In this document: piece by piece, positions 9,665 to 52,881 of the stretch
Layout: each line of letters opens with the position of its first letter
Numbering within the stretch: position 1 is the stretch's first letter
DNA from: Cyanobium sp. NS01
Lineage (GTDB): Bacteria; Cyanobacteriota; Cyanobacteriia; PCC-6307; Cyanobiaceae
Length of the DNA: 64,000 nucleotides
NCBI RefSeq assembly: GCF_014280235.1
Contig: NZ_CP047940.1
Coordinates: 1,550,001 to 1,614,000, forward strand
Reading direction: 5' to 3'
Translations under genes and position numbers: made by a program
Notes under the pieces: model-generated
What the model saw: the letters and a program-made list of their open reading frames with translations, nothing else
The model's database searches: none
Told to the model about the DNA's origin: nothing

Positions 9665-10468
9665 GTGGCAGCCTCCTCACCCTGGCTGAGCGTGGTGCTG
9701 GCCACCCGCAACGAAGGCCATGCCCTGGCGGGCCTGCTGGCCCAGCTGGGCAGCGCCCCCGGCCTGGTGCGCGAGGTGCTGGTGGTGGATGGCGGCAGCC
9801 AGGACGGCACCCCGGAGCTGGCGCGGCTGGCGGGAGCGCGGCTGCTGCGCAGTGCGCCCGGGCGCGGCCGCCAGCTGGCCCTCGGGGCCCAGGAGGCCCA
9901 TGGGCCATGGCTGCTGCTGCTCCATGCCGACGTGCGCCTGCCGCCGGACTGGGCCACTCGCCTCACCCAGGCCCGGCGGAGGCCGGCGGAGGCCTGGTAT
10001 TTCGATCTGGGGATCGACGGCCGCGGCCTGGCCCTGCGGCTGGTGGAGCTGGGGGTGAGGCTGCGCAGCCGCTGGCGGCAGCTGCCCTACGGCGACCAGG
10101 GGCTGCTGCTTCCCCTGCAGCACTACTGGGCCAGCGGTGGCCTCAGGCCCCTGCCCCTGATGGAGGACCTCGACCTGGTGCAGCGCCTGCGGCGTCGCGG
10201 GCGCCTGCGCAGCCTCGGTGGCGCCGTGCGGGTGGACGGCCGCCGCTGGCGGGCCCGGGGCGTCTGGCGCACCACGATCGACAACGCCCGGCTGCGGTGG
10301 GCCTGGCGTCGGGGCGCCAATGCCGAGGCCCTCGCCCGCTGCTACTACGGCCCTGGGGCGGGTCGCCCTAAGGCGCGTACCAGAAGGCGCAGCGACGCTC
10401 CAGGGGCTCCAGATCCCAGCCCTGGGCCCGGTAGAAGGCCACCACCTGGGGATCGGCAAACAGGGTGA
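9665..10468 (+). CDS. TIGR04283 family-2 glycosyltransferase
   Basis: GT-A fold glycosyltransferase. N-terminal motifs LSVVLATRNEG and LVVDGGSQDGT (residues about 6-45) and a DxD-like HADVRLP near residue 83 support family GT2. GTG start. The family usually has about 220-230 residues; here the frame runs on to 267 and its last about 33 codons lie antisense to the GNAT gene. That tail (Pro/Arg-rich, no family similarity) is probably read-through after a lost or shifted stop, or simply a long convergent overlap. Partner of the preceding DUF2064 protein; the acceptor is unknown. Confidence 0.78.
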   Translation: MAASSPWLSVVLATRNEGHALAGLLAQLGSAPGLVREVLVVDGGSQDGTPELARLAGARLLRSAPGRGRQLALGAQEAHGPWLLLLHADVRLPPDWATRLTQARRRPAEAWYFDLGIDGRGLALRLVELGVRLRSRWRQLPYGDQGLLLPLQHYWASGGLRPLPLMEDLDLVQRLRRRGRLRSLGGAVRVDGRRWRARGVWRTTIDNARLRWAWRRGANAEALARCYYGPGAGRPKARTRRRSDAPGAPDPSPGPGRRPPPGDRQTG

Positions 10469-10904
10469 CGCGATCCACCTGCATGCTGCGCAGCTGATCG
10501 AGCACGTAGACCATCAAGGCCTTGCCCAGCCCCAGGCCCTGGTAGTGGGGATGCACGGCCACGTCCCAGACGGTGGCTTCCACCACGCCATCGCCGGTGC
10601 AGCGGGCAAAGCCCACCAGCTTGGGCAGGCGGGAATCGTGCCGCCAGAGCCCCACCCGCAGCAGGCTGTGCTGGAGCGCCTTGCGCACCCGGCGCAGCGG
10701 CCGTCGGCTCCAGCCCACGGCATCACACAGCTGCTCCAGCTCGATCAGGTCGATCTCCCGTTCGGCGCTCAGCACCAGCGACACCTGGCTCTTGGGCGTG
10801 GGGCAGAGCCGGTGCTGCTCCCCGTAGAGCGTGGTGAGCTGGAGGGCCGGATCCACGGAACAGCGCTGGCGGGATGCCACGATCCTGACTGATGGCAGCC
10901 GCAT
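10368..10904 (-). CDS. GNAT-family N-acetyltransferase
   Basis: A 178-residue acetyltransferase. The acetyl-CoA-binding motif A is clear: VWDVAVHPHYQGLGLGKALM (about residues 112-131), preceded by GFARCTGDGVVEA and followed by TLFADPQVVAFYRAQGW, the classic motif B. It resembles the cyanobacterial/plastid Ycf52-like GNAT group, though I would not assign the substrate. ATG at 10904 gives the compact protein; the longer upstream frame is antisense to the hydrolase gene. Its first 13 bases overlap the divergent hydrolase start. Confidence 0.85.
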   Translation of the reverse strand: MRLPSVRIVASRQRCSVDPALQLTTLYGEQHRLCPTPKSQVSLVLSAEREIDLIELEQLCDAVGWSRRPLRRVRKALQHSLLRVGLWRHDSRLPKLVGFARCTGDGVVEATVWDVAVHPHYQGLGLGKALMVYVLDQLRSMQVDRVTLFADPQVVAFYRAQGWDLEPLERRCAFWYAP

Positions 10905-11686
10905 CCGCTCCAGCACAGATCGCCCCGGAGCGACTCCCGGCCAGGCAACGGCCCCTGATCGTGGCCCTCCACGGCTGGCTGCTGGCGGGCCGGCTCTGGG
11001 ATCGGCTGGCGGCGGAGCTGGGGCCTGACTGGGAGATCTGGGCGCCGGATCTGCCCGGTTTCGGCGGCCGGGAGCGGCCCCGGGGCCTGCAGGCCAGCCT
11101 GGCCAGCTACGGCGCCTGGGTGGCCGAGCAGGCACGGCGGCAGGCCCAAGACGGCCGGCCGGTGGTGTTGATGGGTCACTCGCTCGGTGGCAGCCTGGTG
11201 CTCCATGCCGCCGGGGGCCTCGGCAGCCGGCTGGCAGGGGTGGTGCAGATCGCGGTGGGCGGCGGGGTGTACCAACCGAGGCCCTTTGCCCAGGTGCGGC
11301 GGGGCGGGGCGTTGTTCCTGCAGTTGAGACCCCGCTGGCTTGTTCACGTGCCCGGCAGCGGCCCCCTGCGCAGCCCCCTGCTGGCGGATCGGCGGGCGGC
11401 CCAGGGGCTGCTGGCCTGCAGTATGCGGCGCAGCGCCGTGCAGCAACTGCCTGGGCTCACCGCCGCCCTCAGCGTGCCCAGCCTCTGGATCGCCGGCAGC
11501 AACGACCGGGTGATGGAACCCCGCTACGTGCGCCACCTGGCGGGCTACGCCAGCCAGCACGATCTGAGGGTGCTGGCGGGGGCGGGCCATCTGCCGATGC
11601 TCGGGCGGCCCCGGGAGCTGGCCGACACCATCCGCCCCTGGCTGGATCAGATCGCCCCGCCGCGACCCTCTCCAGTTGAGCCGTAG
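10892..11686 (+). CDS. alpha/beta-fold hydrolase
   Basis: A 264-residue hydrolase of the AB_hydrolase_1 type. Elements in order: HGWLLAGRLWD (oxyanion-hole region, residues about 26-36), nucleophile elbow GHSLGG with Ser near 95, acid in GSNDRVM, and catalytic His in GAGHLPM. The substrate is not predictable. It diverges from the GNAT gene with a 13-bp overlap, so the two share a promoter region. Confidence 0.85.
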   Translation: MAAASAPAQIAPERLPARQRPLIVALHGWLLAGRLWDRLAAELGPDWEIWAPDLPGFGGRERPRGLQASLASYGAWVAEQARRQAQDGRPVVLMGHSLGGSLVLHAAGGLGSRLAGVVQIAVGGGVYQPRPFAQVRRGGALFLQLRPRWLVHVPGSGPLRSPLLADRRAAQGLLACSMRRSAVQQLPGLTAALSVPSLWIAGSNDRVMEPRYVRHLAGYASQHDLRVLAGAGHLPMLGRPRELADTIRPWLDQIAPPRPSPVEP

Positions 11687-11711: not shown

Positions 11712-12716
11712 TCAATAGATGGTGGGCACGAAGAACTGTTCGTTCATGGGGGGGCGCTGGTAATCGCTGCCACTCTTGCGGGGGGGCAATTCGATCGCGT
11801 CGGGGGTCATGTCTTCATAGGGAATCTTGCTGAGCAGGTGGCTGATGCAGTTGAGCCGGGCGCGGCGCTTGTCATTGGCCTCCACCGTGAACCAGGGCGC
11901 CTCAGGGATGTTGGTGTGGGCAAACATCTCATCCTTGGCCTTGGAGAATTCCACCCAGCGATCGCGCGACTCCAGGTCCATGGGGCTGAGTTTCCAGCGG
12001 CGGGCGGGGTCTTCGAGCCGTGAGCGGAAGCGGGACTCCTGCTCGTCGTCGCTGACGGAGAACCAGTATTTGATCAGCACGATGCCGCTGCGCACCAGCA
12101 TGCGCTCGAACTCCGGGCAGGAGAGCATGAACTCCTCCACCTGCTCTGGTATGCAGAAGCCCATCACCTTCTCCACCCCGGCGCGGTTGTACCAGCTGCG
12201 GTCGAAAAGCACGATCTCGCCGGCGGAAGGGAAGTGCTCTACATAGCGCTGGAAATACCACTGGGTTTTCTGCTGATCAGAGGGGGTTCCCAGGGCCACC
12301 ACATTGCAGCCGCGTGGGTTCAGGGGCTCGGTGATGCGCTTGATCGTGCCGCCCTTGCCAGCCGCATCCCTGCCCTCGAACAGCAGCACAACCCGATAGC
12401 CCACGTGCTTGATCCAGTACTGCATCTTCACCAGCTCCACCTGCAACCGGGTCAGCTCTTTCTCGTAGAACTTACGATCGAGCTTGGGGAGGTGGCCTTC
12501 CGAATGCTTGGCAAAGTCATCAAAGATCGGAGAAGGTTTGTACTTGTCAGCAGAGAGTCCTTTTTTGTCGTTCTTGCCCTTGCCGCCCTTGGCTTTGGCA
12601 GGGCTCTTGGTCTTGGCCTTTTTCTCGGCTTTCTTCTCCTTCTTGTCTTTTTTGCTCTTTTTCTCACTCCCGTCCATCATCGGTGCAGCGCTCTTGAGCA
12701 GGTCAGCGTCATTCAT
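11712..12716 (-). CDS. ppk2: polyphosphate kinase 2 with Lys-rich N-terminal tail
   Basis: PPK2-family enzyme (334 aa) that transfers phosphate between polyphosphate and nucleotides. Walker A is FEGRDAAGKGGTIKR (about residues 118-132); the lid/Walker B part is IVLFDRSWYNRAGVEKVMG; conserved EFERMLVRSGIVLIKYWFS follows in part. The first about 60 residues are an unusual Lys/Ala tail (repeated KK, KAE and KAK units, no hydrophobic core) resembling histone-H1-like tails, not part of the catalytic domain. The flanking gaps carry no other gene. Confidence 0.93.
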   Translation of the reverse strand: MNDADLLKSAAPMMDGSEKKSKKDKKEKKAEKKAKTKSPAKAKGGKGKNDKKGLSADKYKPSPIFDDFAKHSEGHLPKLDRKFYEKELTRLQVELVKMQYWIKHVGYRVVLLFEGRDAAGKGGTIKRITEPLNPRGCNVVALGTPSDQQKTQWYFQRYVEHFPSAGEIVLFDRSWYNRAGVEKVMGFCIPEQVEEFMLSCPEFERMLVRSGIVLIKYWFSVSDDEQESRFRSRLEDPARRWKLSPMDLESRDRWVEFSKAKDEMFAHTNIPEAPWFTVEANDKRRARLNCISHLLSKIPYEDMTPDAIELPPRKSGSDYQRPPMNEQFFVPTIY

Positions 12717-23336: not shown

Positions 23337-23410
23337 CGGGGCGTGGCGCAGCTTGGTAGCGCGGGTGCTTTGGGAGCACTAGGTCGCAGGTTCGAATCCT
23401 GTCGCCCCGA
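23337..23410 (+). tRNA. trnP: tRNA-Pro (TGG anticodon)
   Basis: Complete cloverleaf: acceptor arm CGGGGCG (23337-23343) pairs with CGCCCCG (23403-23409) plus discriminator A; D-loop with GCAGCTTGGTAGCGC; anticodon stem GTGCT/AGCAC around the loop TTTGGGA, giving anticodon TGG; T-arm with GGTTCGAATCC. CCA is not encoded. The phage-like element begins immediately downstream, so the 3' half is a plausible integration site. Confidence 0.97.
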
Positions 23411-23440
23411 CTGACTTTTCACTGATAGGCCAAGGGCCAT

Positions 23441-32707: not shown

Positions 32708-33112
32708 ATGGCCAATCCCCAGAAGCGCAAGGGGGATGCGGCGGAGCGGGAGGCGGCGCTCCTGCTGAGCGAGCTGCTGGGGATGACGGTGCGCCGCCGC
32801 CTGGGAGCAGGACGGACCACCAGTGCTGGCGGCGACACCGGTGATCTCGATGGCGTGCCGGGACATGTGATCCAGGTAGCCAGCTGGGCCAACACCGCCG
32901 CCGCGGCCCGCACCAAGCCCGAGGAGGCCGCGCTGCAGTCCGTCCATGCCGGTGCTCCGTTCGCTGCGACCTTGGTGCGCTTCCGTGGAGGCACCTGGCG
33001 GGTGGTGCTCACTCCCCAGCAATGGGCTGCCTACGTGAGCTGGATCCTGCGGCAGTCGCCCCAGGGGACGGCGCTCCCTGATCTGCCGCCCAGTAGTGGA
33101 GGTGGAGCTTGA
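32708..33112 (+). CDS. Holliday-junction-resolvase/VRR-like nuclease, active site incomplete
   Basis: A 134-residue protein. KRKGDAAEREAALLLSELLG and RRLGAGRTTSAGGDTGDLDG match the N-terminal part of archaeal-type Hjc resolvases (Glu, then an Asp in a GD-D loop). The expected Glu-x-Lys on the next strand reads GHVIQVASW here, so the catalytic Lys is absent or displaced. It may be a structure-specific DNA-binding protein or an inactive nuclease. Stop overlaps the small-terminase start. Confidence 0.6.
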   Translation: MANPQKRKGDAAEREAALLLSELLGMTVRRRLGAGRTTSAGGDTGDLDGVPGHVIQVASWANTAAAARTKPEEAALQSVHAGAPFAATLVRFRGGTWRVVLTPQQWAAYVSWILRQSPQGTALPDLPPSSGGGA

Positions 33113-33642
33113 GCCTCGAGCAGCCACCGACAGCGGGCGCTTGCTCAGACGCGGGCGCTGAGTCGCTGGAGGAGCTGCGTGCTGCTCCGCCCCAGCAGGA
33201 CGACGAAGGCAACCCGATCTGGCCTGCCGCCGACCCCAGCAGGCCGGTGGGCAAGGGCAACCCGCCGCGGGGCCGCCGCAGCAAAACCCACAAGCCCCGC
33301 GCCACCCATATGGAGGTGGAGACCCGCATCGCGGAGGCGCAGCTGTGGGTCGCGCAGCGGCTACCGCTGGCTGTAATCAGGGAAAAAGCCGCCCAGAACT
33401 GGGGAATCACCAACATCAAAACGGTGAGCCGTTATCTGGCACTGGCGCGGCAGCGGATGGTGGAGGAGCTGATCTCCGACCGCCGCCGCCACCAGGCCGA
33501 GCAGATCTTTGCCCTCAATGAATGCGCCAGGCGGGCGATGGACGCCGAGCAGTTCAACGCAGCGGTCGGCGCCTTCCGGGTGATTGCCGAGATCGGTGGC
33601 CTGCTGCGGGCACCGATCAAGCCGCCGGAGCCACGGGTATGA
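33109..33642 (+). CDS. terS: small terminase-like protein
   Basis: A 177-residue protein immediately before the large terminase and overlapping it by 4 bp. The N-terminus is low-complexity; the central part (LAVIREKAAQNWGITNIKTV followed by SRYLALARQRM) is a HTH-like DNA-binding region and the C-terminus is helical (oligomerisation). These features and position suggest TerS. A TTG start at 33109 overlaps the preceding stop; ATG 33310 is the next candidate but would remove the tail only. Confidence 0.65.
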   Translation: MSLEQPPTAGACSDAGAESLEELRAAPPQQDDEGNPIWPAADPSRPVGKGNPPRGRRSKTHKPRATHMEVETRIAEAQLWVAQRLPLAVIREKAAQNWGITNIKTVSRYLALARQRMVEELISDRRRHQAEQIFALNECARRAMDAEQFNAAVGAFRVIAEIGGLLRAPIKPPEPRV

Positions 33643-35282
33643 CGGCGAGTACCACCGCCACCGCGATGCCAGCACCGGTGCTCACGCCACAGGTCCCTGC
33701 AGAAGGCGGATTGCTGCTGAGCGAGCTCGACCCCTGGGGCGACGGCGGCCTGCTGCACCTCCCCACGGCCACTGCTGCCGAGCCAACGGAACCTCAGAGC
33801 CTGCGCAGCTTCATCGCCGAGGCCTACCCCCGCTACGGCTTCCACCGCTGGGCCGAGGTGCTGATCGAGCTGCTCCAGCAGGTGGCCGATGGCCAGCTGA
33901 GCCGGTTGATCGTGACCTGTCCGCCGCGGCTTGGGAAATCTCTGCTGGTATCCAAGCTGTTCCCGGCCTACTTCCTGCAGCGTTACCCGCACCTGTTCGC
34001 GGCGATCGCCTCCTACTCGGCGGAGCTGGCCTATGCCCACTCCAGAGAGGCGCGCCACTTCTACCGGGTGACCGGGCATCTGCTGGCCCGTGATTCGGCG
34101 GCGGTGGGCAACTGGCTCACCCGCCAGCGGGGCGGCTGCATCGCTGCTGGCGTGGATGGCCCATTCACCGGCAAGGGCTACAGCCTGGGAATCATCGACG
34201 ACCCCTACAAGGGCCCTGGCGATGCCGCCTCTCCGGCGCTGCGGCAGAAGCTGATCGACTGGCTGCGCTCGGTGTGGCTCACCCGCGCCGAACCGGCCTC
34301 GGTGCTGGGTCCGGATGGCAGGGAACAGCCGAACCTCTCGGCCCAGGTGGTGGTGCTCACCCGCTGGGACCACCAGGACGTGATCGGCTGGTTGCTGGAG
34401 CAGGAGCTGGGCGAGGCCCCCCAGCACTGGACCGTGCTCGATCTGCCGGCCATCGCCGAGGACCCGGCCGATCGCCCCAAGCTGCCGCCCACTTGCACCC
34501 TGATCCCCGATTGGCGCCAGCAGGGAGAAGCCCTTTGCCCTGAGCGGTTCCCCTTGCCGGAACTGATCAAAATTCGCGCCCGCCTCGGCGCCTACTGGTG
34601 GGCAGCGCTCTATCAGCAGCGGCCCAGCCCGGCGACGGGATCGATCTTCCTGAGGCAGTGGATCAGGCCCCCGTTCCCTCGGCCGGACGGCCGCCAGCGT
34701 CAGTACGCCCTGCTGGTCCTCTCGTGTGACCTGAGCTTCAAGGGGGAAGCGGAGAGCAACTACTGCGGCTTCTGCCTGGCCGGCCTGCTGGCACCACCAG
34801 CCCGCTTTGCCATCCCCCGATCAGGTGAACCTCAGGGCCCAACGGCGCCAAAGGAGCTGGAGATCGAGGTGCTCTGGGCGGCCCGGCACCGTTTTGGTCT
34901 ACCCGAGGTGATCCGCTTCCTGCTGGGCTGCCTGGAGGCCCTGGAGCAACAGGGCCTACGGCCGAATGCCGTGCTCATCGAGGACGCCGCCAACGGCCCG
35001 GCAGTGCTGCAGACGCTCAGGCGCCGCGTGCCGGGGATGCTGCCAATCACCGCCCGCGGCAGCAAGGAAACCCGCGCCCATGCCGTTGCCCCCCTGGTGG
35101 AGGCCGGGCAGATTCGCTTTCACCACCGCGCCCAGCCGCTGGTGGAGGAAGCGATCCGCTTCCCCAAGGGCAGCAAGGACTTGGTGGATGCTTTCTGCCA
35201 CGGCGCCCTGTGGCTTGAAGGCCGCTACTGGAAGGCCCAGGGCATCCAGCCGTTGGTGACACCGCTGCTGGTGAGCCGGTGA
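33639..35282 (+). CDS. terL: terminase large subunit
   Basis: DNA-packaging motor (547 aa). Walker A VTCPPRLGKSLL (about residues 92-103), Walker B YSLGIIDDPYKG (about 181-192), coupling motif region VVVLTRWDHQD. The C-terminal nuclease domain starts around LLVLSCDLSFKGE, with acidic residues at AVLIEDAANG and SKDLVDAFCHG. ATG 33639 was chosen for the 4-bp overlap with TerS. It is typical of Terminase_6/TerL from tailed phages. Confidence 0.9.
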   Translation: MTASTTATAMPAPVLTPQVPAEGGLLLSELDPWGDGGLLHLPTATAAEPTEPQSLRSFIAEAYPRYGFHRWAEVLIELLQQVADGQLSRLIVTCPPRLGKSLLVSKLFPAYFLQRYPHLFAAIASYSAELAYAHSREARHFYRVTGHLLARDSAAVGNWLTRQRGGCIAAGVDGPFTGKGYSLGIIDDPYKGPGDAASPALRQKLIDWLRSVWLTRAEPASVLGPDGREQPNLSAQVVVLTRWDHQDVIGWLLEQELGEAPQHWTVLDLPAIAEDPADRPKLPPTCTLIPDWRQQGEALCPERFPLPELIKIRARLGAYWWAALYQQRPSPATGSIFLRQWIRPPFPRPDGRQRQYALLVLSCDLSFKGEAESNYCGFCLAGLLAPPARFAIPRSGEPQGPTAPKELEIEVLWAARHRFGLPEVIRFLLGCLEALEQQGLRPNAVLIEDAANGPAVLQTLRRRVPGMLPITARGSKETRAHAVAPLVEAGQIRFHHRAQPLVEEAIRFPKGSKDLVDAFCHGALWLEGRYWKAQGIQPLVTPLLVSR

Positions 35283-35989
35283 GCGTGCCGATGGTGTCCG
35301 CAGTGCGGGAAAATCCCAAGCCTTCCGCAGTGGAGAGCCCACGCCCTGCTGTGCTGACTCCTGCTGCAGTGCAGCTGGCGCTGCCGCTCACGGTGGTGCT
35401 GGTGGGCAATGCCGCTGGGGCGGAGCGAATGCTGCAGCAAAGGCGCTACCGCCGGCCGGCGTGCCATGCCCGTGCGCAGCAGCTGGAGATCAACTGGCAG
35501 CAGCCCGTTCGACACCGGTCCCGGCCCCAGGCTGGCCAGGTTGCTCAGGCTTCCCACTGCCGGCCACGCCGTCAGCGCCCTGTGCGGCCTCATGCCGCTG
35601 CCGATGCCCTGGCGCTGCAGCACAGGGACTTGGCGGAGAAGATCGCCGGCAACTTCGCTCGGCGCACGATCCACCCCAAGGAGGATCTGCTGCAGCTGGC
35701 GATGATCGGGCTGATCAAAGCGGCGCGGCGCTATGACCCATCACGGGGTCCGTTCCGGCCCTATGGCCGCACCTACGCCAATGGGGAGATCACCCACTTC
35801 CTGCGGGACAACGGCTTCCTGCTGAAGGTTCCGCCGACCTGGCGGGAGCTGCATGCGCGGGGGCAGCGGTTGCTGACCTCAGGAGTAGATGTGGAGGAGA
35901 TGCTTGAGCGAATAGGGATCAGCCGCCTGCAGTGGATTCAGATCGTTGATGCTTGCTCAGTACGGGTGGTTGCTTTTCCTGTTGAATGA
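35279..35989 (+). CDS. phage-encoded sigma-70-like factor (region 2)
   Basis: A 236-residue protein from GTG 35279, overlapping the terL stop by 4 bp. Residues about 1-105 are Pro/Arg-rich and probably unstructured. From about 112 it shows sigma region 2: HRDLAEKIAGNFARRTIHPK, EDLLQLAMIGLIKAARRYDP and GPFRPYGRTYANGEITHFLR, then a region-3-like LKVPPTWRELHARGQ. No region 4 is visible; it ends shortly after a helix with WIQIVDACSVRVV. Likely diverts RNA polymerase to element promoters. Location between terL and portal is unusual. Confidence 0.75.
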   Translation: MSVPMVSAVRENPKPSAVESPRPAVLTPAAVQLALPLTVVLVGNAAGAERMLQQRRYRRPACHARAQQLEINWQQPVRHRSRPQAGQVAQASHCRPRRQRPVRPHAAADALALQHRDLAEKIAGNFARRTIHPKEDLLQLAMIGLIKAARRYDPSRGPFRPYGRTYANGEITHFLRDNGFLLKVPPTWRELHARGQRLLTSGVDVEEMLERIGISRLQWIQIVDACSVRVVAFPVE

Positions 35990-36038
35990 ATCTCCTTCAA
36001 CAGGTGTGTCGAGAAGCGACGGCACATGATTGCTGTTG

Positions 36039-38159
36039 TTAGGCAGTCAACGAGTGTGTCTCTGGGTTTGGTTTGAAGCGCTCAAATAAGTTCTGCCAAA
36101 CTTGTAACGTCGCTTCGGGAACTGGCTCGCAGTCAAGCAGGGCACGCTTCACTCGCTTCGCAAGCTCTACTTTCCAGCCCTTCACCAGCGCCACACCACC
36201 TTCATTCGCCCATGCCTCGATCTGTGGAACGATGGGTTTATTTGCATCATGACGTCTTTCGAAGGGAGTCTCAGGCTCACGGATCATCCTATCGACAATC
36301 TTGGCGATAATGCCAGCTGGGATTAAATCTTCGACCTCGGCTCCGTTGATGTCGACAAACGAGCTGACCTGCAGCACCCGATCGGCATCCGCCGCATACA
36401 GGCCCGTCCGGAGTGCCTGCACGGAGCGGGTGCCTTGTTCGTCGCCGTCGAGGAGCGCCATGGGGAGTCTCTCGTCGCGTCCCCCCAAGATGCTCGCTAT
36501 AGCTTTGATCCCCTTCGCGCCTCCAGCGGGGGGAAATACGATCTCGCGTACAGGACTGAGTAACCCATTCCGAATGAGAATCGTCTTGATTGCGGCGAGG
36601 TAGTGCTGATCGGAGGGGCCCTCTACGATCACTGGATCACATCCAATCAAGAGACCCTCGGCGACACTCAACCCCAACGCTGCATGGACAGCGTAGCCAG
36701 CGCCCCGTTTGGTCGGGTCGCCACCATCAGCGCCAAGATCAGATGTAGCTTTACTCGTCCCGTCAGGCGCAACAAAGACTTTTCTGACACGATCTAGGCG
36801 ATCGGCGTCCACCAGGAAGGGTGAGTGTGTAGTATACATCAACTGATTTCGCTCAGCCAGCCCATCGAAAAAGTCGGAAAGATCGCGCTGAGCCAGAGGG
36901 TGCAGCGAAAGACCTGGCTCGTCAAGAAGCAGGATGCAGCCCGAATGTGTGTCCTGACTCTCCACCAAGAAGACAAGGTAAAAACTGAGAAACCACTGAA
37001 GGCCGGTACTGCGGCCTTCCAGTTCAACCTCCTCGGGACGACGGTCATCTGCAACCCAGATTCGGAAATGGTCACCGTCTGCCTCAAATCGGAAGCGATA
37101 GTCGCCTTGCTTCCACCAGCGCCGGAATTCCTCGGTGAGCCGCGTAGAGGCAGACTGAAGCAAGATACTCCGCTCCTTTTTCTTCTGAGCGGACTGCTCT
37201 ACCTGTTCCTCGGAAGGCTGCTGGCCCGGTGGGTGAATATCCTTACCTAAACTAAGAATTTCAGTGGGCTGGAGTTCGACGAATTCAAAAAGGACCTTGA
37301 GGGTCCTTGCCTTCGCACGCTCTTTCTGGCCTAGACCCTCCAATCGATTCAGGTTCTGGATGACGTGTGGAAGATATATCTCGGAATCGAGATTCCCATA
37401 GTTCGAGTAATAGACGAACTTTGGAAGGCTGCCAAGGATTAACTTCTTGACCTCCTCAGAGTCGCTGGGGTGATCCCTCGATACTGATGAATAGTGCTCT
37501 TCGATCTGCTGTTGGAGTCGCTTAAAGCGCGGGATTACGGCACTGGTCTTTGGGGCACCCTGAAGGCTCACGCTCGATAAAATCTCGCGCAGTTCTGAAA
37601 CATTATCAAGGCCGCACTCGCTCTCTTCTGGTAGAGCATCTTGAGCAGTAGTGATGGAATCGAGAATGCTCGAGCAAACACCTTGTTCTGTTTTCATCTG
37701 CTTTGCCGAAGCGATATCTTTGGCTGCCGACTCTAAGAGAGCGGCAAGATCCTCGACGAGAACGGTCTGCTCCTGTGGGGCGAGGGGGAAGTCGATCTCG
37801 TGCCTGCCATCGAGGCGGCGCCGAATAGTCACCTTCTCGACTAAGTCCTCGCTGAGTCCGGCTTTGCGGGCGAGATGTGTACGTAAAGCCCCGTGGACTG
37901 CGAACTCGGCCTCGATGAAGACAGGTTTAGGATTAGCGTTGCGGAAGGCCGTAAAGTGCTTTCGAGGAAAGTCGGACGTCGGGTGGATCTCTCCCTCCTT
38001 GGCAGGATTCAGCTTCCAGAGAGGGAGTAAGAGGTTGCTTTTTCCTGATTCGTTAGTTCCGATTAGTGCGGTCACGTCGTCCACGTCGATCCACCCGCTG
38101 TCCTCCACGGAGCGAAAGGCTGTAACGCGGAATCTGGTGAGCTTCATCTCGATCGGCAT
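36039..38159 (-). CDS. OLD-family ATPase/TOPRIM nuclease
   Basis: A 706-residue overcoming-lysogenisation-defect type nuclease. N-terminal ABC ATPase: Walker A ALIGTNESGKSNLL (about residues 31-44), Walker B CILLLDEPGLSLHP and THSPFLVD switch (about 410-450). C-terminal TOPRIM: PVIVEGPSDQHYLAA (catalytic Glu, about 528-542) and MALLDGDEQGT (Asp-x-Asp). It is a standalone gene; no UvrD-like GajB partner adjoins it, so class 1 OLD rather than Gabija. GC is lower than in the neighbours and it is opposite in strand, interrupting the packaging genes between sigma factor and portal: a defence insertion. Confidence 0.88.
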   Translation of the reverse strand: MPIEMKLTRFRVTAFRSVEDSGWIDVDDVTALIGTNESGKSNLLLPLWKLNPAKEGEIHPTSDFPRKHFTAFRNANPKPVFIEAEFAVHGALRTHLARKAGLSEDLVEKVTIRRRLDGRHEIDFPLAPQEQTVLVEDLAALLESAAKDIASAKQMKTEQGVCSSILDSITTAQDALPEESECGLDNVSELREILSSVSLQGAPKTSAVIPRFKRLQQQIEEHYSSVSRDHPSDSEEVKKLILGSLPKFVYYSNYGNLDSEIYLPHVIQNLNRLEGLGQKERAKARTLKVLFEFVELQPTEILSLGKDIHPPGQQPSEEQVEQSAQKKKERSILLQSASTRLTEEFRRWWKQGDYRFRFEADGDHFRIWVADDRRPEEVELEGRSTGLQWFLSFYLVFLVESQDTHSGCILLLDEPGLSLHPLAQRDLSDFFDGLAERNQLMYTTHSPFLVDADRLDRVRKVFVAPDGTSKATSDLGADGGDPTKRGAGYAVHAALGLSVAEGLLIGCDPVIVEGPSDQHYLAAIKTILIRNGLLSPVREIVFPPAGGAKGIKAIASILGGRDERLPMALLDGDEQGTRSVQALRTGLYAADADRVLQVSSFVDINGAEVEDLIPAGIIAKIVDRMIREPETPFERRHDANKPIVPQIEAWANEGGVALVKGWKVELAKRVKRALLDCEPVPEATLQVWQNLFERFKPNPETHSLTA

Positions 38160-38438
38160 CGGTTTAACTCAGCGACCCCAGTTGATTGTGTGAAGACTGC
38201 ACATCCATGCGCCTTGGCCGGCCGAGCTCTTATTTCTTTGGCCTCGCAGTGAGTCCTGAGTGCCTTGATGTGGCCGCATAAGAACCATGCTTCGTATCTC
38301 AGCCCAGGGTAGGCACCGTGTCCGTCAATGGGTCTGGTACAGCGGCTCTGTTGAAGGGTCTTCGCCGGCTACGGGTATTCCCCCCCCTGGTGCTGTTCCT
38401 TCTGCCCCTGGCAAGAGCCTGCACCGTCTCCTTGCACC

Positions 38439-40016
38439 GTGCAAACGCGTCGCCGCAGTCGCACCCGGACCTCAGCCACGGTCGCTCCTGAGCCCCCTGC
38501 CAGTGAGCAGCCTCCCTGGCTTGAACACCCCACCCTCTCTGGACTTCGCGACCGCCTCCAGCTGGTCTACGACTGCTGGACTCTGCTCGAACTCCCAGAC
38601 GGCACCAGCCGCCGGCCGGTGTACCTCCCCCGCGGCATCGAGGAGCCCGAGACCTGCTACCTCAAGCGTCTGGAGGCGGCTCGGCCCACCGGTTTCTACC
38701 GCGATGCTCTGCGCACCTACGCCGGGATGCTGTCGCGGCTGAACTGGCAGGAGCTTCCCGATTCCCTCAGCCGCGTGGCCACCGATGTGGATGGCCAGGG
38801 CACCGACCTGGGGGTGTTCCTGTTTCTGGCTGACCTGCTCACCCTGCGAGATGGCGGCTGCCTGATCCTGCAGCTGCCGCCTCAGCACCGCTGGCCCTCG
38901 GAAGGCGACTGGCTGGAGGCCCTCGCCAAGGGCGATCGGCTTTCGTTGCCGCGGCTGCAGCTAGTGCCCCGGGGAGACCTGCTCAACTGGCGCCTGCCTA
39001 CCGATGGCGCCACAGGCGCCCCAGCGTCGGGACCGGTAGAGATCGTTTGGCGTGAGCCGCGCCGCCAGGCCCTGCCGCCCCGCTACTCCAGCGACCATGC
39101 CGCCGTGCCCACGGTGCTGATCGACGCCCACGGCGGTCTGGTGCCCGATCCACAGGCCTGGCTGTACCGGACCCTCTCGGTCACCGATGACGGCCTGATG
39201 CTGTACAGCTGGCAGGCCAACCCCAACCCCGGCGCCGTGGATGGCTACGACGTGATGCCGGTGGGCGAGCCTTCGCTGCTGCCCCAGCGCTTTGACCTGC
39301 CGGCCCTCTGGTACTCGGTGGATGGGACCGCCTTCGGTGAGGGCGACCTGCCCCACCTGGGCCTGGCCCACCAGTACCTCAACCACTACCGCTGCCGCAG
39401 CGATTACGAGGATCTGTTGTCACGCACCGCCCTGCCAGTGGGCGTACGTACGGGCCTGGTGGATGTCTACGGCTTCCGCCGCAGTGATGGCGCTTTGGGC
39501 TCGAATTCATCTACCGGTGGCACAGATGCCCAACGCCCCCAGCGCCTGGTGCTCTCCACCTCCTCCTTCATGGACCTGCCGGAGGGCGCCAAGTTCCAGT
39601 GGGTCGAAATAAAAGCGCGCTCGCTGGCCGAGCACCGGGCCTACCTGCAGCAGCTGGAAGAAGCCATGCGTCGCGATGCCCTGATCCCTGCCGGTGGCCA
39701 CGGCCCCGCCCGCACGGAGCTGGAGATTTCTCTCACCGCCGGCCAGAGCTTTGCGGTGCTGCAGTCGCTGGCAGGCCAGAAGAGCTCGATGCTCAGCACC
39801 CTGCTGCGCCAGTGGACCCGCCTCACCGGCGAAAAGCTTTCAGAGACGCCGGCCTGCAGCGTGGAGATCAGCCCGCTGGTGCCACCCCAGCCACCACGCA
39901 AACCCCAGCCCTCGGTGCAGGAGTGGCTGGTGCTGCATGAGCGGGGGGTGATCGACGGCGCCGAGCTGCGCCAGCAGCTGGGGCTGGGCGAGCCCAACGG
40001 GGGCAGTGGCGGCTGA
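38439..40016 (+). CDS. phage portal protein, DUF4055 family
   Basis: A 525-residue protein from GTG 38439. The early part has PVYLPRGIEEPETCYLKRLE and FYRDALRTYAGMLSRLNW, the DUF4055 portal signature, then LTLRDGGCLILQLPP and PALWYSVDGTAFGEGDLPHLG with LAHQYLNHYRCRSDYEDLL. The C-terminal helix is typical of the portal clip/stem. The 279 bp before it hold no gene; this is the right seam of the OLD insertion. Forms the head's DNA gate. Confidence 0.82.
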   Translation: MQTRRRSRTRTSATVAPEPPASEQPPWLEHPTLSGLRDRLQLVYDCWTLLELPDGTSRRPVYLPRGIEEPETCYLKRLEAARPTGFYRDALRTYAGMLSRLNWQELPDSLSRVATDVDGQGTDLGVFLFLADLLTLRDGGCLILQLPPQHRWPSEGDWLEALAKGDRLSLPRLQLVPRGDLLNWRLPTDGATGAPASGPVEIVWREPRRQALPPRYSSDHAAVPTVLIDAHGGLVPDPQAWLYRTLSVTDDGLMLYSWQANPNPGAVDGYDVMPVGEPSLLPQRFDLPALWYSVDGTAFGEGDLPHLGLAHQYLNHYRCRSDYEDLLSRTALPVGVRTGLVDVYGFRRSDGALGSNSSTGGTDAQRPQRLVLSTSSFMDLPEGAKFQWVEIKARSLAEHRAYLQQLEEAMRRDALIPAGGHGPARTELEISLTAGQSFAVLQSLAGQKSSMLSTLLRQWTRLTGEKLSETPACSVEISPLVPPQPPRKPQPSVQEWLVLHERGVIDGAELRQQLGLGEPNGGSGG

Positions 40017-41734: not shown

Positions 41735-42124
41735 TCATGCCGCCTCGAGCCCCAGGTGCTCGACATAGGGCTGAAAGTCGCGGTCGCTGAACAGCAGCGG
41801 CAGGTTGGCCTCGATGCAGGCGGTGGCGATGATCCCGTCGATCGTCTTGCGCACCGTGATTCCCTGGCGGCGCAGCGTTCTGTAATTCTCTGCTGCCTTC
41901 CAGGCATTGCTGCCACCAAGCATCGGCAGCAGAGCCAAGGAGCGGAACAGTTGCCGGGCGGTGGCCACGTCGCGCTCGGTGCGGAAGCCCTGCATCACCT
42001 CCACCAGGATCAGATCGCCGATCGCCAGCGGTGTCACCCCGAGCCATCCATCCAGCCGCTCCACCTCGGGGGTGCTCACCCCATTGAAGAAGTCGATCCA
42101 GACCGAGGAATCGACAACGATCAC
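41735..42124 (-). CDS. vapC: VapC-family PIN toxin
   Basis: PIN-domain RNase (129 aa). Acidic active-site residues: Asp5 in VVDSSVWIDFF, Glu42 in LVEVMQGF, and Asp residues in RKTIDGIIATACIEANLPLL (in part TIDGIIATACI) and FSDRDFQPY. Overlaps the upstream vapB by 4 bp. It lies antisense and between structural genes of the element, 17 bp from the LysM gene end. Confidence 0.88.
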   Translation of the reverse strand: MIVVDSSVWIDFFNGVSTPEVERLDGWLGVTPLAIGDLILVEVMQGFRTERDVATARQLFRSLALLPMLGGSNAWKAAENYRTLRRQGITVRKTIDGIIATACIEANLPLLFSDRDFQPYVEHLGLEAA

Positions 42125-42342
42125 GGCTGCTGCTCAGTCGCCTCGGTCTGCGCGTCCAGGCGCTGGGCGTCCAGATCACCGTCCCAGCGGAGCTGGCCGC
42201 GGAAGGAGCGGATCTTGCCCTGCTGCTGCAGCTTGACCAGGGTGCGCAGCCCCAGCTCGACCGCCTCCCGTTTGCTGCGGGCCCCGCTGGCCTGCATCGC
42301 CTGCTTCATCAGGGCGTCGTCGATGACGATGTTGGTACGCAT
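42121..42342 (-). CDS. vapB: VapB-family antitoxin
   Basis: A 73-residue antitoxin from ATG 42342. MRTNIVIDDALMKQAMQASG then RSKREAVELGLRTLVKL is the RHH DNA-binding part of VapB; the C-terminal tail (FRGQLRWDGDLDAQR) neutralises the PIN toxin. Typical autoregulated pair with vapC; the divergent gap to the scaffold gene probably holds the operator. Confidence 0.85.
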   Translation of the reverse strand: MRTNIVIDDALMKQAMQASGARSKREAVELGLRTLVKLQQQGKIRSFRGQLRWDGDLDAQRLDAQTEATEQQP

Positions 42343-42466
42343 GGGCCCCATGGGCGATGTGTAAAGCGTAGGGCGGCTATACACATCCGGGATCGGGCCG
42401 GCTGGCAACAGGAACTGCGAGCGCAGCCCGGATGGGGCGCCCGCAGCACCACAGCCGCGATGGGTG

Positions 42467-43747: not shown

Positions 43748-43966
43748 TCAGCAGACCGAGACGGTGCAGCCGGGGGTGCCCTGCAGCTTGCGGGCAAAGG
43801 CGAATGCCTTCTCGGCAGGGATCAGCCGCATCTTCTTGACGGGCTTGCCGCGGCGGCCAAAGAACTCGACCTCACAGGGAGTGGTGCCGAGCTTCTGGAC
43901 TCCCGGCTGATAGCGGTGAACCACAAGCAGGCGGACTTCGCAGACGGGGCCTTGGGGAGTGGCCAT
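43748..43966 (-). CDS. small protein, paralogue of the one at 61794
   Basis: A 72-residue protein from ATG 43966: MATPQGPVCEVRLLVVHRYQ, then FFGRRGKPVKKMRLIPAEKA and a C-terminus TPGCTVSVC. The N-terminus (Met-Ala-Thr-Pro-x3-Cys-x-Val/Ile-Arg-x-x-x-Val-His) and overall layout resemble the small protein at 61794-62006. A palindromic element lies 51 bp upstream of its start. Function unknown. Confidence 0.55.
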   Translation of the reverse strand: MATPQGPVCEVRLLVVHRYQPGVQKLGTTPCEVEFFGRRGKPVKKMRLIPAEKAFAFARKLQGTPGCTVSVC

Positions 43967-44017
43967 GGCTGGGGTGGAGCGGAGAACACCGACCAGACGC
44001 CCCGCAGGCGCAGTGCT

Positions 44018-44058
44018 GGCCAGGGGCGAGCCCAGCGAGCCTCGCGTCAGCCCTGGCC
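44018..44058 (-). repeat. palindromic element, copy C
   Basis: Minus-strand arms GGCCAGGG and CCCTGGCC enclose the core CTGACGCGAG. A second inner pairing (GCGAG with CTCGC) is possible, leaving CTGAC as a bulge. It lies upstream of the small gene starting at 43966. The rest of the gap 43,967-44,240 holds no gene. Confidence 0.6.
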
Positions 44059-44240
44059 AGCGCAAGCCGCAGGGGCATGCTGCGGAGGGGTTTCGCTCCG
44101 CCCCGCCAGCCACGCCCAACTGGCCCTGCTGCATATCCGTGCTGAGCATCCACCGCGCCCGAGCAGTGGAGCTGCTCCGCCAACCCTGGGATCGAGGCAC
44201 AGGCAAGGGGGCCGAAGCTGCAGCCCCCAACCCATGGCGC

Positions 44241-44564
44241 TCAGGCCATCTGCAGCTTCTGCTCTGACAGTGGCTGGCGCTGGAGCTCGAGCTCACAGCG
44301 CTGCAGCAGCTCCTGCTGGGCCAACAGCCGCTCATCCAGCTCATCCACCCGCGCCAGACACTGCTGGATCGCCGGAATCACCTCCTCCTCCAGCAGGGTG
44401 ATCTCCTCTTCTCCATAGGGCTGCTCGATCCAGGTGCGGCGCAGCGGCAGCCCACGACGACGTAGCAGGATCTCCTCCACCGAGCGCAGCGTGGATTCGA
44501 GCAGCAGGAACGGATCCTCTTCTGGCCTGCAGAACGGGGAGGCAGGAATAGAGAGCGTGGCCAT
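44241..44564 (-). CDS. hypothetical coiled-coil protein
   Basis: A 107-residue protein from ATG 44564. Strongly helical and acidic; the C-terminal two-thirds (EEEITLLEEEVIPAIQQCLA, VDELDERLLAQQELLQRCEL) looks like a coiled coil. No family recognised. It sits in the leftward lysis-like block. Confidence 0.5.
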   Translation of the reverse strand: MATLSIPASPFCRPEEDPFLLLESTLRSVEEILLRRRGLPLRRTWIEQPYGEEEITLLEEEVIPAIQQCLARVDELDERLLAQQELLQRCELELQRQPLSEQKLQMA

Positions 44565-46276: not shown

Positions 46277-46286
46277 GGCTGTGGTG

Positions 46287-47450
46287 ATGGTTTCATCCTG
46301 GATCTGGCAGCAGCCGGACTGGCCCCAGTTCCGCTGGAAGGGCTCCGCTCTGGAACCGCTGCTGGAGCAGGCCCGCGCTGCACGCCAGGAGTTGCTGAGC
46401 CGGTTGGAGACGCTGGAGCCCCCGCTCGATCGCGAGGCGATCTCCGCCTTGCTGGGCCGGGAGAGCCTGGGCACGGCCGCCATCGAAGGCGAGCTGCTGG
46501 ATCCCGGCCAGGTGCGCTCCTCAATCGCGCGCCGACTGCGCCTTCCCCTGGCCGAGGGGCAGCCGGCCACCAGCGCCCAGGTGGAGGGCCTGCTGGATGT
46601 GTTGCTGGAGGCCACCAGCAGCCTGGAGGCTCCCCTCACCCTGGCCACGCTGAACCACTGGCATCGGCGCCTGTTTGCCGCTGGCCCCGATGACCTGCGC
46701 GCCATTCGGATCGGTGAACTGCGCGATGAAGCCCCGATGCAGGTGCTCTCCGGTGCCATCGGCCGTGAGCGCCTGCACTTTGAAGCGCCGCCCCGAGACC
46801 AGCTCGAAGAGCAGCTGAAGGTCTTCCTGGATTGGGTCGCCTCCCCGCCTGCGCAGCTGGACGGACTGTTGCGCGCGGGCCTGGCCCACCTCTGGTTTCT
46901 CACCCTCCACCCCTATGAAGACGGCAACGGCCGCTTGGCCCGTGCCATCACCGATCGGCTGCTCGCCCAGGACTGCAGGGCCCAGGTCCAACGGGAGTTG
47001 TCTGGCCGCGCCCTGGGCATCTCCGCCCAGATCCTGCGGGAGCGGGAGGGCTACTACACGGCACTGGAGCGCTGCCAGCGGGGAAATCTGGATGTCACCG
47101 GATGGCTGAGCTGGTTCCTGGAGCAGCTCACGGCAGCGGCGGCCACCAATGGCGCCGTGATCGATGCGGTGCGGCGCAAGGCGGCCTTCTGGTGGAGCCA
47201 CCGTCACAGCGGCTTCAACAGCCGCCAGCAGAAACTGCTCAATCGGTTGCTGGATGCCGAACCGGAGGGTTTCACAGGCGGCATGACCCTGCGCAAGGCC
47301 ATCAGCCTCACCAAGGTGAGCCGCGCCACGGCCTGGCGCGATCTGGCCGAGCTGGTGGAGCAGCAGGCGCTCGAGCCGATCGGCGAGGGCCGCAGCCGCG
47401 CCTATCGCCTCCATTGGCCAGGCGGGCCGCTACCCGGGGATGGCGCGTAA
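46287..47450 (+). CDS. Fic-family AMP-transferase with N-terminal inhibitory motif
   Basis: A 387-residue Fic protein. N-terminus WIWQQPDWPQFRW matches DUF4172-type Fic enzymes. Inhibitory motif TAAIEG near residues 66-71 fits the [S/T]xxxE[G/N] consensus of class II Fic proteins, so the active site is probably autoinhibited. Fic active site: HPYEDGNGRLAR (about 207-218) with catalytic His. The C-terminal part LRKAISLTKVSRATAWRDLA is a winged helix. ATG 46287 preferred over GTG 46281/46284. It is flanked by the lysis-like block and the capsid gene and looks like a cargo gene with its own operator. Confidence 0.85.
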   Translation: MVSSWIWQQPDWPQFRWKGSALEPLLEQARAARQELLSRLETLEPPLDREAISALLGRESLGTAAIEGELLDPGQVRSSIARRLRLPLAEGQPATSAQVEGLLDVLLEATSSLEAPLTLATLNHWHRRLFAAGPDDLRAIRIGELRDEAPMQVLSGAIGRERLHFEAPPRDQLEEQLKVFLDWVASPPAQLDGLLRAGLAHLWFLTLHPYEDGNGRLARAITDRLLAQDCRAQVQRELSGRALGISAQILREREGYYTALERCQRGNLDVTGWLSWFLEQLTAAAATNGAVIDAVRRKAAFWWSHRHSGFNSRQQKLLNRLLDAEPEGFTGGMTLRKAISLTKVSRATAWRDLAELVEQQALEPIGEGRSRAYRLHWPGGPLPGDGA

Positions 47451-47548: not shown

Positions 47549-48490
47549 TTGTCACTGGGGCCAGGCCCCTGGAGCGTGCCCTTGGGCCTGACCTTGATCG
47601 AGGCGCAGAAATACGCCCGCCGTGCTGAGCAGCTGGCGGTGCTCAAGACCTTTGCGGAGGGGGAGCTGCTGCGCCGCTTGCCGTTCCGCAACCTCGTCGG
47701 TGGCTCGCTGAGCTTTCCGGCTGAGACCAAACTGCCCCGTGTCGGCTTCCGTGCCGTCAACGAGGGCTACCGCCAGAGCTATGGGGTGATCAACTCCGAT
47801 TCGGAGTTCGTGCACCTGTTCGGCGGCGATCTGGATGTGGACCGCTCGATCGTGGATCTGCAGGGCCCCGAGGCGCGCGCCGCCCAGACCGAAATGAAGG
47901 TGCGCTCGATGCGCCTCACCCTGGAGGCAGCAATCATCAATGGTGACGACACCTTTGATCCCCGCGCCTTCAACGGGCTGAGCAAGCGCCTGGGGCCTGG
48001 AGACGACCAGACCATCGACAACGGCGGCAGCACGCTCAACCTGCTGGCGCTGGAGGCATTGACCGACAGCGTGATCGGTTACGGCGGCGACAAGGTGCTG
48101 ATCGCCAGCAAGGCGGCCCGCCGCCAGATCAGCACCGCCTCCCGCCAGGCCGGCGGCGACCTCTACGAGGTGATCGATGGGCGCCACTACTTCGAGGGGG
48201 TGGAGATCCTGATGGTGGAAGAGGACGCCGAGGGCAACGCCGTGCTCGGCTACGACGAACCGGGAGACACCACCTCCATCTACTGCTGCGTGCTCGGCGA
48301 TGCGGCGGTCTGCGGCCTGCAGGGCCCGTTCGAGGGGCGCTACGGGATCTCGGTTCGGGACTTCGGGGAGGTGCACGACGCGCCGGTGTTCCGCACGCGG
48401 GTGGATTGGTACGTGGGCTTTGCCGTCTGCAACCGCAAGGCGGCAGCGCGCCTGTTCAACGTGGCGCCCATGCCGTTGGTGCTGCCCTGA
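47549..48490 (+). CDS. major capsid protein
   Basis: A protein of 313 aa from TTG 47549, or 304 aa from GTG 47576 (VPLGLTLIEAQKYA), the more family-like start. The helical N-terminus (EAQKYARRAEQLAVLKTFAE) is followed by LVGGSLSFPAETKLPRVGFR, MRLTLEAAIINGDDTFDPRA and NLLALEALTDSVIGYGG, then IAS...RRQISTASRQAGGDLY and a C-terminal RVDWYVGFAVCNRKAAARL. The last phrase is typical of HK97-fold capsids. AGGAG at 47541-47545 could serve either start. Confidence 0.78.
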   Translation: MSLGPGPWSVPLGLTLIEAQKYARRAEQLAVLKTFAEGELLRRLPFRNLVGGSLSFPAETKLPRVGFRAVNEGYRQSYGVINSDSEFVHLFGGDLDVDRSIVDLQGPEARAAQTEMKVRSMRLTLEAAIINGDDTFDPRAFNGLSKRLGPGDDQTIDNGGSTLNLLALEALTDSVIGYGGDKVLIASKAARRQISTASRQAGGDLYEVIDGRHYFEGVEILMVEEDAEGNAVLGYDEPGDTTSIYCCVLGDAAVCGLQGPFEGRYGISVRDFGEVHDAPVFRTRVDWYVGFAVCNRKAAARLFNVAPMPLVLP

Positions 48491-52021: not shown

Positions 52022-52624
52022 TCAGCCCCCTCCGGCGAGCCGCTGGCGCAGGGCAGCGATGGCCTTCTTCTGGGCCCGCTGCACCGACATGGCGCTGATC
52101 ACGAGCCGCTCGGCGGCCTGCCGGAGCGACAGGCCTTCCAGGGCTGTGAGCCGCAGGGCGGTGGCCTGAGAGGCAGGCAGCTGATCCACCAGCTGCTCCA
52201 GCGCCAGGCCATTCACGGCCTCGCTCATGGTCGGCTCGGCTTCTGGAGCAGCCAGCTGATCGAGCATGCAGGGCTCGCCATCGGCTGTGGCATCGAGGCT
52301 GAGGTGCCCAAGCGGGCACTGGCCCTGCTCATGCAGCCGGCGCGGCACGCGCACCAGCCGCACCCGATCACGCAGGTGATGCTGCAGCGCCCCTGTGATG
52401 CAACGCCGCAGATAGGGCGCCGCCGGTTCGCCGGCTCTGCAGCAGGGAGCGGAGCGCACCAGGGCCTCGCGGGCCACCTGGATCAGATCCTCCCGCTCCA
52501 CCAGCGGGAACAGGCGCCGGGCCATGACGGCAGCTATGGCATCAGCCAGCGATAGGTGCTCCAGCACCAGGGCATCACGGGCCTTGAGGGCAGAGCGGCT
52601 TAGGGAGGAAGCGGGGGAAGCCAT
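52022..52624 (-). CDS. second phage sigma-70-like factor (regions 2 and 4)
   Basis: A 200-residue protein from ATG 52624. Region 2 elements: LSLADAIAAVMARRLFPLVE, EREDLIQVAREALVRSAP, and YLRRCITGALQHHLRDRVRL with a following VRVPRRL. Region 4 at the C-terminus: LPASQATALRLTALEGLSLR and QAAERLVISAMSVQRAQKKA (HTH). It resembles small alternative sigma factors and is convergent with the structural operon. Probably recognises element promoters; no anti-sigma factor is visible. Confidence 0.72.
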   Translation of the reverse strand: MASPASSLSRSALKARDALVLEHLSLADAIAAVMARRLFPLVEREDLIQVAREALVRSAPCCRAGEPAAPYLRRCITGALQHHLRDRVRLVRVPRRLHEQGQCPLGHLSLDATADGEPCMLDQLAAPEAEPTMSEAVNGLALEQLVDQLPASQATALRLTALEGLSLRQAAERLVISAMSVQRAQKKAIAALRQRLAGGG

Positions 52625-52881
52625 CGGCAGGACGGCGGAGAACCCCACCCCCACCGGCCGGCCGCAGCGCCGTGACAAGGACGCCCGACCCAGGAGGGCG
52701 CCTGGCCTGATCCTTGACGAGGCGCGAGGACTGGCCGAGGGATCCGGTGGGTGTGCGGCGGTCCGGTGATGAGCCCCTCCCCCTTCCCGTTGCCATGCAG
52801 TGCCCTGGCATGCCGGTTCCCGCGCCGGCCTTGCCGCTGCAGCAGGATGGCGGCCCCATCAAGGGCTGATCCCTGATTGCG

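Follow-up and report, generated by a model that had tools for sequence, protein, structure and literature searches.

Gene order around the sigma factor gene

The window, a 64,000-nucleotide stretch of the Cyanobium sp. NS01 genome, contains a phage-like element in which a sigma factor gene directly follows the gene for the large terminase subunit (Table 1). The GTG start of the sigma open reading frame (ORF) and the TGA stop of terL share the four letters GTGA (35279-35282); an earlier note on this DNA had described the sigma gene as translationally coupled to terL. That note placed the sigma gene between terminase and portal; terL and portal do flank it, but an antisense OLD-like gene intervenes before the portal. 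The ORF upstream of terL matched PHROG 34910 (unknown function; E 1.1e-4) and no Pfam family, and its position is kept in relatives.

Table 1. Genes and candidate sites of the element, from the terminase genes to the major head protein gene
Feature	Position	Strand	Basis and remarks
Small terminase gene, probable	33109..33642	+	Named from its position before terL; HTH-like N-terminus by eye
terL, large terminase subunit gene	33657..35282	+	PHROG 38, E 2.4e-75; Pfam Terminase_6C
Sigma factor gene	35279..35989	+	236 aa; region 2, predicted region 3, no region 4
Candidate attC site of the OLD cassette	35990..36044	-	Directly adjoins the sigma stop codon; includes a GTTAGGC box (36038-36044)
OLD/AriA-like ATPase gene, proposed cassette cargo	36039..38159	-	Runs opposite to the phage genes
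Diverged attI-like region upstream of portal	38160..38408	-	Some attI blocks of relatives kept, plus CCGCATAAGAACC (38274)
TGGCAAKRGC-type box, possible single-box promoter	38409..38418	+	30 nt before the portal start
Portal gene, first right of the slot	38439..40016	+	Pfam DUF4055; PHROG 145 (portal), E 2e-18
Major head protein gene, same element	47549..48490	+	PHROG 212, E 2.7e-54

Sigma factors in virion operons had been considered uncommon, which did not hold for this lineage. When 31 related sigma loci were compared with the window proteins, terL lay just upstream of sigma in 30 (all but L067) and the portal gene lay downstream in 24; in a second set of 29 named loci, terL was upstream in 28 (the exception, L136, and L067 being one contig) and the portal gene was downstream in 22. 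The records are labelled predominantly Synechococcus, Cyanobium, and Vulcanococcus, with single records labelled Microcystis elabens and Sphingomonadales (a metagenome-assembled genome [MAG]) and two unclassified Cyanobacteria (MAGs).

In the annotated phages P-SS2, S-CRES1, and S-CBS2, the small terminase, terL, and sigma genes likewise follow one another in this order. The window TerL aligned with the TerL proteins of S-CBS2, S-CRES1-3, and P-SS2 over 86 to 88% of its length at 34 to 37% identity, and the portal protein matched 8 of 50,697 phage records, all of them from P-SS2, S-CBS2, or S-CRES phages, so that these phages resemble the element in having homologous TerL and portal proteins. 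In the window, the relatives, and P-SS2, S-CRES1, and S-CBS2, sigma is found at the packaging module and not among early genes. The three phages differ from the window in that their sigma gene is followed by annotated phage genes rather than by an antisense cassette.

A predicted sigma factor with regions 2 and 3 and no region 4

The earlier note reported a sigma-like ORF with a clear region 2 and no visible region 4 and proposed a profile search and a structural comparison as checks. Both bore the assignment out. The ORF matched Pfam Sigma70_r2 at residues 113 to 179 (E 2.3e-12; 46.9 bits, cut-off 24) and the sigma factor family PHROG 351 (E 9.1e-19), and its region 2 was superimposed by VIA-align on 8b3z_D over 77 residues (Z 13.5, rmsd 1.5). 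No Pfam region 4 family was found at an E value of up to 1. Beyond sigma factors, the structure search gave no useful match among the matches listed.

Region 3 had been overlooked. Pfam gave no separate match to it; the NCBIfam profiles SigBFG and SigF, however, extended through residues 107 to 194 and 115 to 199, and a profile of 38 family members aligned with sigma-B (8x6g_H) over profile positions 94 to 213. An AlphaFold model (mean pLDDT 65.4, pTM 0.39) had confident helices at about residues 106 to 177 and 191 to 220, with helices past region 2 placed at 188 to 200, 205 to 212, and 216 to 226. As judged from these profiles and the model, the protein is predicted to contain region 3 besides region 2.

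The first 105 residues, which had been singled out as Pro/Arg-rich and unlike a normal sigma N-terminus, are indeed 15.2% Arg and 12.4% Pro, and residues 1 to 43, 47 to 49, and 55 to 95 are predicted to be disordered (pLDDT below 50). In 15 comparisons within the close clade, dN/dS was 0.28 to 0.48 for residues 1 to 105 and 0.07 to 0.21 for the remainder. Both halves of the protein are under purifying selection; thus, the N-terminus, although predicted to be disordered, is conserved in the close clade. Across the 38 sequences, D136, L137, Q139, G144, L145, K147, and A148 were invariant, residues that we take to belong to the sigma core-binding helix, and the most conserved stretch of the protein is the core-binding and −10 region of region 2.

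The sigma copies that were read end within about a dozen residues of a common point after region 3, the exceptions being L058 (an interrupted copy) and L059 (slightly longer), and in the three copies run against Pfam (window, L065, and L057), region 2 was the sole domain recognized. Two loci, L067 (2716-2937 and 10111-10515) and L068 (1179-1607 and 2776-3198), have an additional sigma copy, in part truncated, that follows the first at a distance of kilobases. The P-SS2 sigma scored 38.7 bits for Pfam region 2, while those of S-CRES1 and S-CBS2 fell below the cut-off; Pfam found no region 4 family in any of the three. These phage proteins share with the window protein the place directly after terL and a region 2 without a region 4 family, and they differ in having longer C-terminal tails and in lacking the Pro/Arg-rich N-terminal part. 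A passage of the P-SS2 paper calls its own terL-linked copy a group 3 sigma factor, likely for a particular regulon. Taken together, the ORF most likely encodes a functional, truncated sigma factor (region 2 plus a predicted region 3) of a P-SS2-like cyanosiphophage lineage.

The sigma-portal slot carries mostly antisense, exchangeable cargo

Sigma and portal were 1.07 to 8.2 kb apart across the 25 loci that have the two genes, the distance in the window being 2.45 kb, and locus L125 represents the empty arrangement, with 70 bp from the sigma stop to the portal. Across the 25 loci, 45 of 61 cargo ORFs of at least 90 aa, or 14,626 of 18,520 aa, were antisense to the phage genes; seven of the 16 sense ORFs are in L055. 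These counts omit the seven loci without a portal in the available DNA (L010, L029, L058, L063, L064, L067, and L068).

Cargo differed between loci with similar flanks: among 369 locus pairs with flanks at least 80% identical in DNA, only 2 had at least 100 nt of cargo in common and 367 did not. (L114, L121, L122, L129, and L136, whose contigs were already included, and L119, a copy of L118, were left out of this comparison; the first five were also omitted from the 24-locus attC set and the attI-pair count below.) In L001 and L117, a near-identical cargo block crosses the attI-like region and reaches about 100 nt into the portal gene. Since the shared block runs through that region into portal, it points to an exchange by ordinary recombination and not at attI. 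In L117, an insert of about 1.2 kb (9742-10960), perhaps an insertion sequence, lies inside the sigma-proximal attC-like hairpin.

Pfam families found in the 20 of 76 cargo ORFs that were scanned included an ABC-three-component C-terminal domain, GmrSD, a subtilase with an AAA ATPase, YaaC, a DUF676 esterase fold, and HNH; HEPN and PD-(D/E)XK matches were below their cut-offs, and 8 of the 20 proteins had no family at an E value of up to 0.001. PADLOC, applied to 50 of the 76 cargo proteins and the window OLD protein, returned LmuB, IetS, AriA, and Old, with two of the 51 proteins matching each, although its models with AAA ATPase domains cross-match widely. By orientation, comparison, and domain content, the cargo is mostly antisense, exchangeable, and, from its predicted domains, partly defence-like.

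Homologues of the YaaC-like cargo of L052 and of a 333-aa cargo protein of L003 were found in 0 of 129 genomes each, and the window OLD protein was found solely in its own genome among 99. A cassette-sized stretch of the L064 slot matched two host arrays at the DNA level: that of the window's genome (68% identity, 946 nt) and one from elsewhere (70% identity, 698 nt).

attC sites in relatives lie in one orientation

Textbook attC sites were present beside the integron integrase (IntI) genes of related genomes, in 9 of the 11 host loci that were read. A strict RYYYAAC...GTTRRRY scan was dropped because it missed most sites, and a looser one because it also matched control DNA (6 matches in the 56 kb of window outside the slot, compared with 31 in 88.5 kb of slots); a covariance model (R1) was used instead. 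R1 was built solely from 20 attC sites in nine host arrays beside IntI. It has double changes at 13 of 20 pairs and includes the unpaired extra base.

In the window and the 31 sigma loci (494 kb), R1 gave 25 matches at an E value of up to 0.5, all 25 antisense to sigma. Twenty-two fell inside the slot (87 kb in total), 5 of them in loci without a portal in the available DNA, where the slot was set at 4 kb. The other three were in L066, L058, and L067; in L067, a match lies behind the second sigma fragment. Eight matches end 3 to 5 nt before the end of the sigma stop codon, which places the stop codon within the recombination box.

The 24 further loci (363 kb) gave 19 matches, bounded by portal or contig end, all antisense and downstream of sigma, with 7 on the sigma stop and 6 in loci without a portal. 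Two loci of this set, both without matches, are redundant, L126 being the same contig as L063 and L119 a duplicate of L118; L117 shares the L001 cargo. Combined, 44 of 44 matches were antisense, 41 of 44 were in the slot, and the sigma stop lay in the recombination box in 15 loci. The relatives thus have attC sites in the single orientation that defines an integron platform.

attI-like sites and IntI

Downstream of intI in two hosts, a box pair GGRYCCG...GGRYCCG occurs at a spacing of 131 nt (L099) or 133 nt (L104) and is followed by a GCGTT core; the remaining hosts among the 11 had one strict box or none. The same pair, at 132 nt, precedes the phage portal genes of L003, L053, and L055. A count on both strands of 55 loci (793 kb, not including the window) gave eight pairs, five of which are antisense and within 400 nt left of a portal (L003, L053, L055, L115, and L131). 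In these five relatives, the slot therefore has the attI-like site of an integron platform; the strict pair was not found in the other portal-bearing loci. The host attI sites varied too much among themselves for a statistical model. The window genome's own attI (G000:C1 downstream of intI, L095) was seen by eye to lack the second box, with transposase-like sequence after the first.

No intact integron integrase gene was found inside the platform. Between sigma and portal, five divergent loci (L065, L066, L124, L127, and L135) retain antisense C-terminal remnants of IntI; those of L065, L124, and L135 are separated from portal by no more than about 100 nt. In the window's genome, an integron integrase gene lies at 995579-996517 (456.9 bits, cut-off 265), about 0.55 Mb from the prophage. 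Among genomes of the family, IntI exceeded the cut-off in 15 of 22 that have a sigma locus, where it lies intact outside the platform, versus 9 of 99 without one (Fisher p 2.3e-8, a value that ignores relatedness, genome size, and completeness), and a full IntI was absent from 7 of the 22. Among 11 viral contigs, none had IntI over the cut-off and 2 had sub-threshold matches.

The window's own copy of the slot

In the window, R1 found no match in the slot and none below an E value of 0.25 anywhere. The hairpin of the candidate attC is marginal (10 of 200 shuffles were equally good), and the attI-like region does not keep the GGRYCCG pair. The copy agrees with the platform of relatives in its GTTAGGC box, in position, and in carrying an antisense gene. 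This gene, whose stop codon lies within the GTTAGGC box, matched Pfam AAA_15 (E 1e-20) and the PADLOC models AriA (E 1.9e-22) and Old (E 3.8e-19). We read the single OLD-type gene as a probable cassette in a worn copy of the slot.

The TGGCA of the box before portal (Table 1) falls in a single column of the alignment in all 25 loci, divergent ones included; in the empty site L125, it lies 10 nt past the sigma stop. TGGCAAKRGC was rejected as a repeated late promoter, the element in the window having no second exact copy; the other exact match is at 12351 on the minus strand, left of the element. No such box precedes portal in P-SS2 or S-CBS2, and S-CRES1 has a TGGCA 80 nt upstream. Occurring in a single place, the box could be a single-box promoter of the kind that would suit a sigma factor without region 4.

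Proposed explanation and alternatives

The observations are best explained as a whole by a truncated sigma factor of a P-SS2-like lineage together with a slot that is an integron platform, worn in the window; we give this reading a probability of about 70%. For the relatives, alignments and site models show the anatomy of such a platform: conservation, orientation, predicted sites, and a sigma stop inside the terminal recombination box. The earlier interpretation of the sigma gene was partly supported, and the integron-type slot that it overlooked is the more unusual feature.

The sigma factor would be produced along with the terminase; on the likeliest reading, it would dock on host RNA polymerase and, like T4 gp55, guide it to virion-gene sites of the −10 type. 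Passages of PMC2988020 describe gp55 as a late sigma with region 2 and no region 4, and gp33 as its split-sigma partner. Only the absence of region 4 from a phage region 2 protein is shared; the window sigma differs in its predicted region 3 and its long N-terminus. By this analogy, the switch of late transcription that the earlier note suggested is plausible. In the prophage family, as the sequences of relatives show, the slot comprises an attI-like site before portal, followed by attC cassettes antisense to the virion genes. Because 3' remnants of IntI survive in the divergent clade, the platform probably descends from a complete integron that has since lost intI. Host chromosomal IntI probably serves it in trans, and the cassettes would defend the lysogen.

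Several results count against the platform reading: in the window, the attC is unmatched, its hairpin marginal, and the attI diverged, and elsewhere there are the 16 of 61 sense cargo ORFs, the 7 of 22 genomes without a full IntI, the 3 matches off the slot, the L001/L117 exchange that was not at attI, and the two cargo proteins lacking a homologue in 129 genomes each.

The sigma factor might divert polymerase from host genes in a host take-over instead of directing it to late promoters, as phage sigma factors annotated in other cyanophages and in Bacillus phages would allow. We consider this unlikely, given that the gene lies in the packaging module and not with early genes. Less likely still is an ordinary moron or defence hotspot, with homologous recombination between conserved flanks and attC-like hairpins that are terminators or chance. 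The flanks are conserved, the single near-identical cargo block examined (L001/L117) passes the attI region into portal, and the window copy has no model-supported sites; but the uniform orientation and placement of the attC matches, the host-type attI box pairs and IntI remnants in the slot, and the cassette-sized stretch common to the L064 slot and host arrays argue against it. To the same degree, we doubt that the protein has ceased to be a transcription factor and is a DNA-binding packaging accessory made with TerL. The terL overlap, the fixed position within the packaging module, and the long, basic, disordered N-terminus would fit such a role, whereas the strongest conservation is in the core-binding and −10 region, and a table of P-SS2 particle proteomics lists 0 peptides for its sigma. 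Loss of region 4 through insertion of an integron into a full-length sigma gene is very improbable: the stop codon does lie inside a recombination box in 15 loci, but the P-SS2, S-CRES1, and S-CBS2 sigmas have no region 4 family despite their longer tails, and the sigma of the empty site L125 aligns to the same end, so that at most a tail was lost.

The platform reading is related to two known systems. Phage integrons are already known: according to passages of Qi et al. 2023 (PMC9892861), integrons or parts of them (CALINs) occur in 21 phages, usually without IntI; the main text of that paper does not refer to Synechococcus, Cyanobium, cyanobacteria, or portal. Those cases, as described there, likewise have attC sites and cassettes in phages and are scattered, whereas here there is one fixed slot in the virion operon with an attI-like site across a whole prophage lineage. 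Neither such a fixed slot nor an integron platform of cyanobacterial prophages was reported among the literature matches listed, which cover open-licence papers only, so that their silence is weak evidence. The chromosomal integrons of Synechococcus, Cyanobium, and Vulcanococcus relatives share the attC type, the attI box pair, and one cassette; the phage copy differs in lacking intI, in lying between sigma and portal, and in being read against the virion genes.

In its fullest form, to which we assign even odds, the proposal is that a temperate cyanosiphophage lineage has an integron docking site in its virion operon, on the sigma stop, and borrows host IntI to swap cassettes, many of them anti-phage, while the sigma without region 4 and the TGGCAAKRGC box would keep the operon expressed across the insert. 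If true, the lineage would be a regular phage vehicle for chromosomal integron cassettes and would have a standard slot for changing defence cargo with the virion genes untouched. The platform makes action of host IntI in trans on prophage sites directly testable, and the absence of region 4 does the same for the working of the sigma with cyanobacterial RNA polymerase.

Element edges and other features of the window

The element appears to occupy about 23.4 to 51.8 kb of the window, and its left start seems to lie beside a tRNA-Pro gene (23337-23411). No prophage att repeat of at least 16 nt matching the tRNA-Pro region was found; the longest match, of 14 nt, is at 4687 and thus not on the side where a repeat would be expected, so that the right edge is putative. 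No phage integrase or tail gene was recognized among the element ORFs scanned. The element may be defective or a satellite.

Inside the virion region, a VapBC-looking pair was recognized by eye at 41735-42408 (minus strand); related ORFs occupy that region in L052 and L056, and L004 has a VapC match. An antisense ORF at 43748-44344 (minus strand) has a C-terminal half conserved in relatives at up to 98.9% identity. Between the scaffold and major head protein genes, an ORF of PHROG 5978 (unknown function) at 46281-47450 (plus strand) contains the sequence HPYEDGNGR, presumably a Fic-like motif. Just right of the element, a second sigma-like ORF at 52022-52678 (minus strand) has both region 2 and region 4, and it is followed at 53.2 to 61.3 kb (minus strand) by likely type I restriction-modification genes, recognized by eye from translation.
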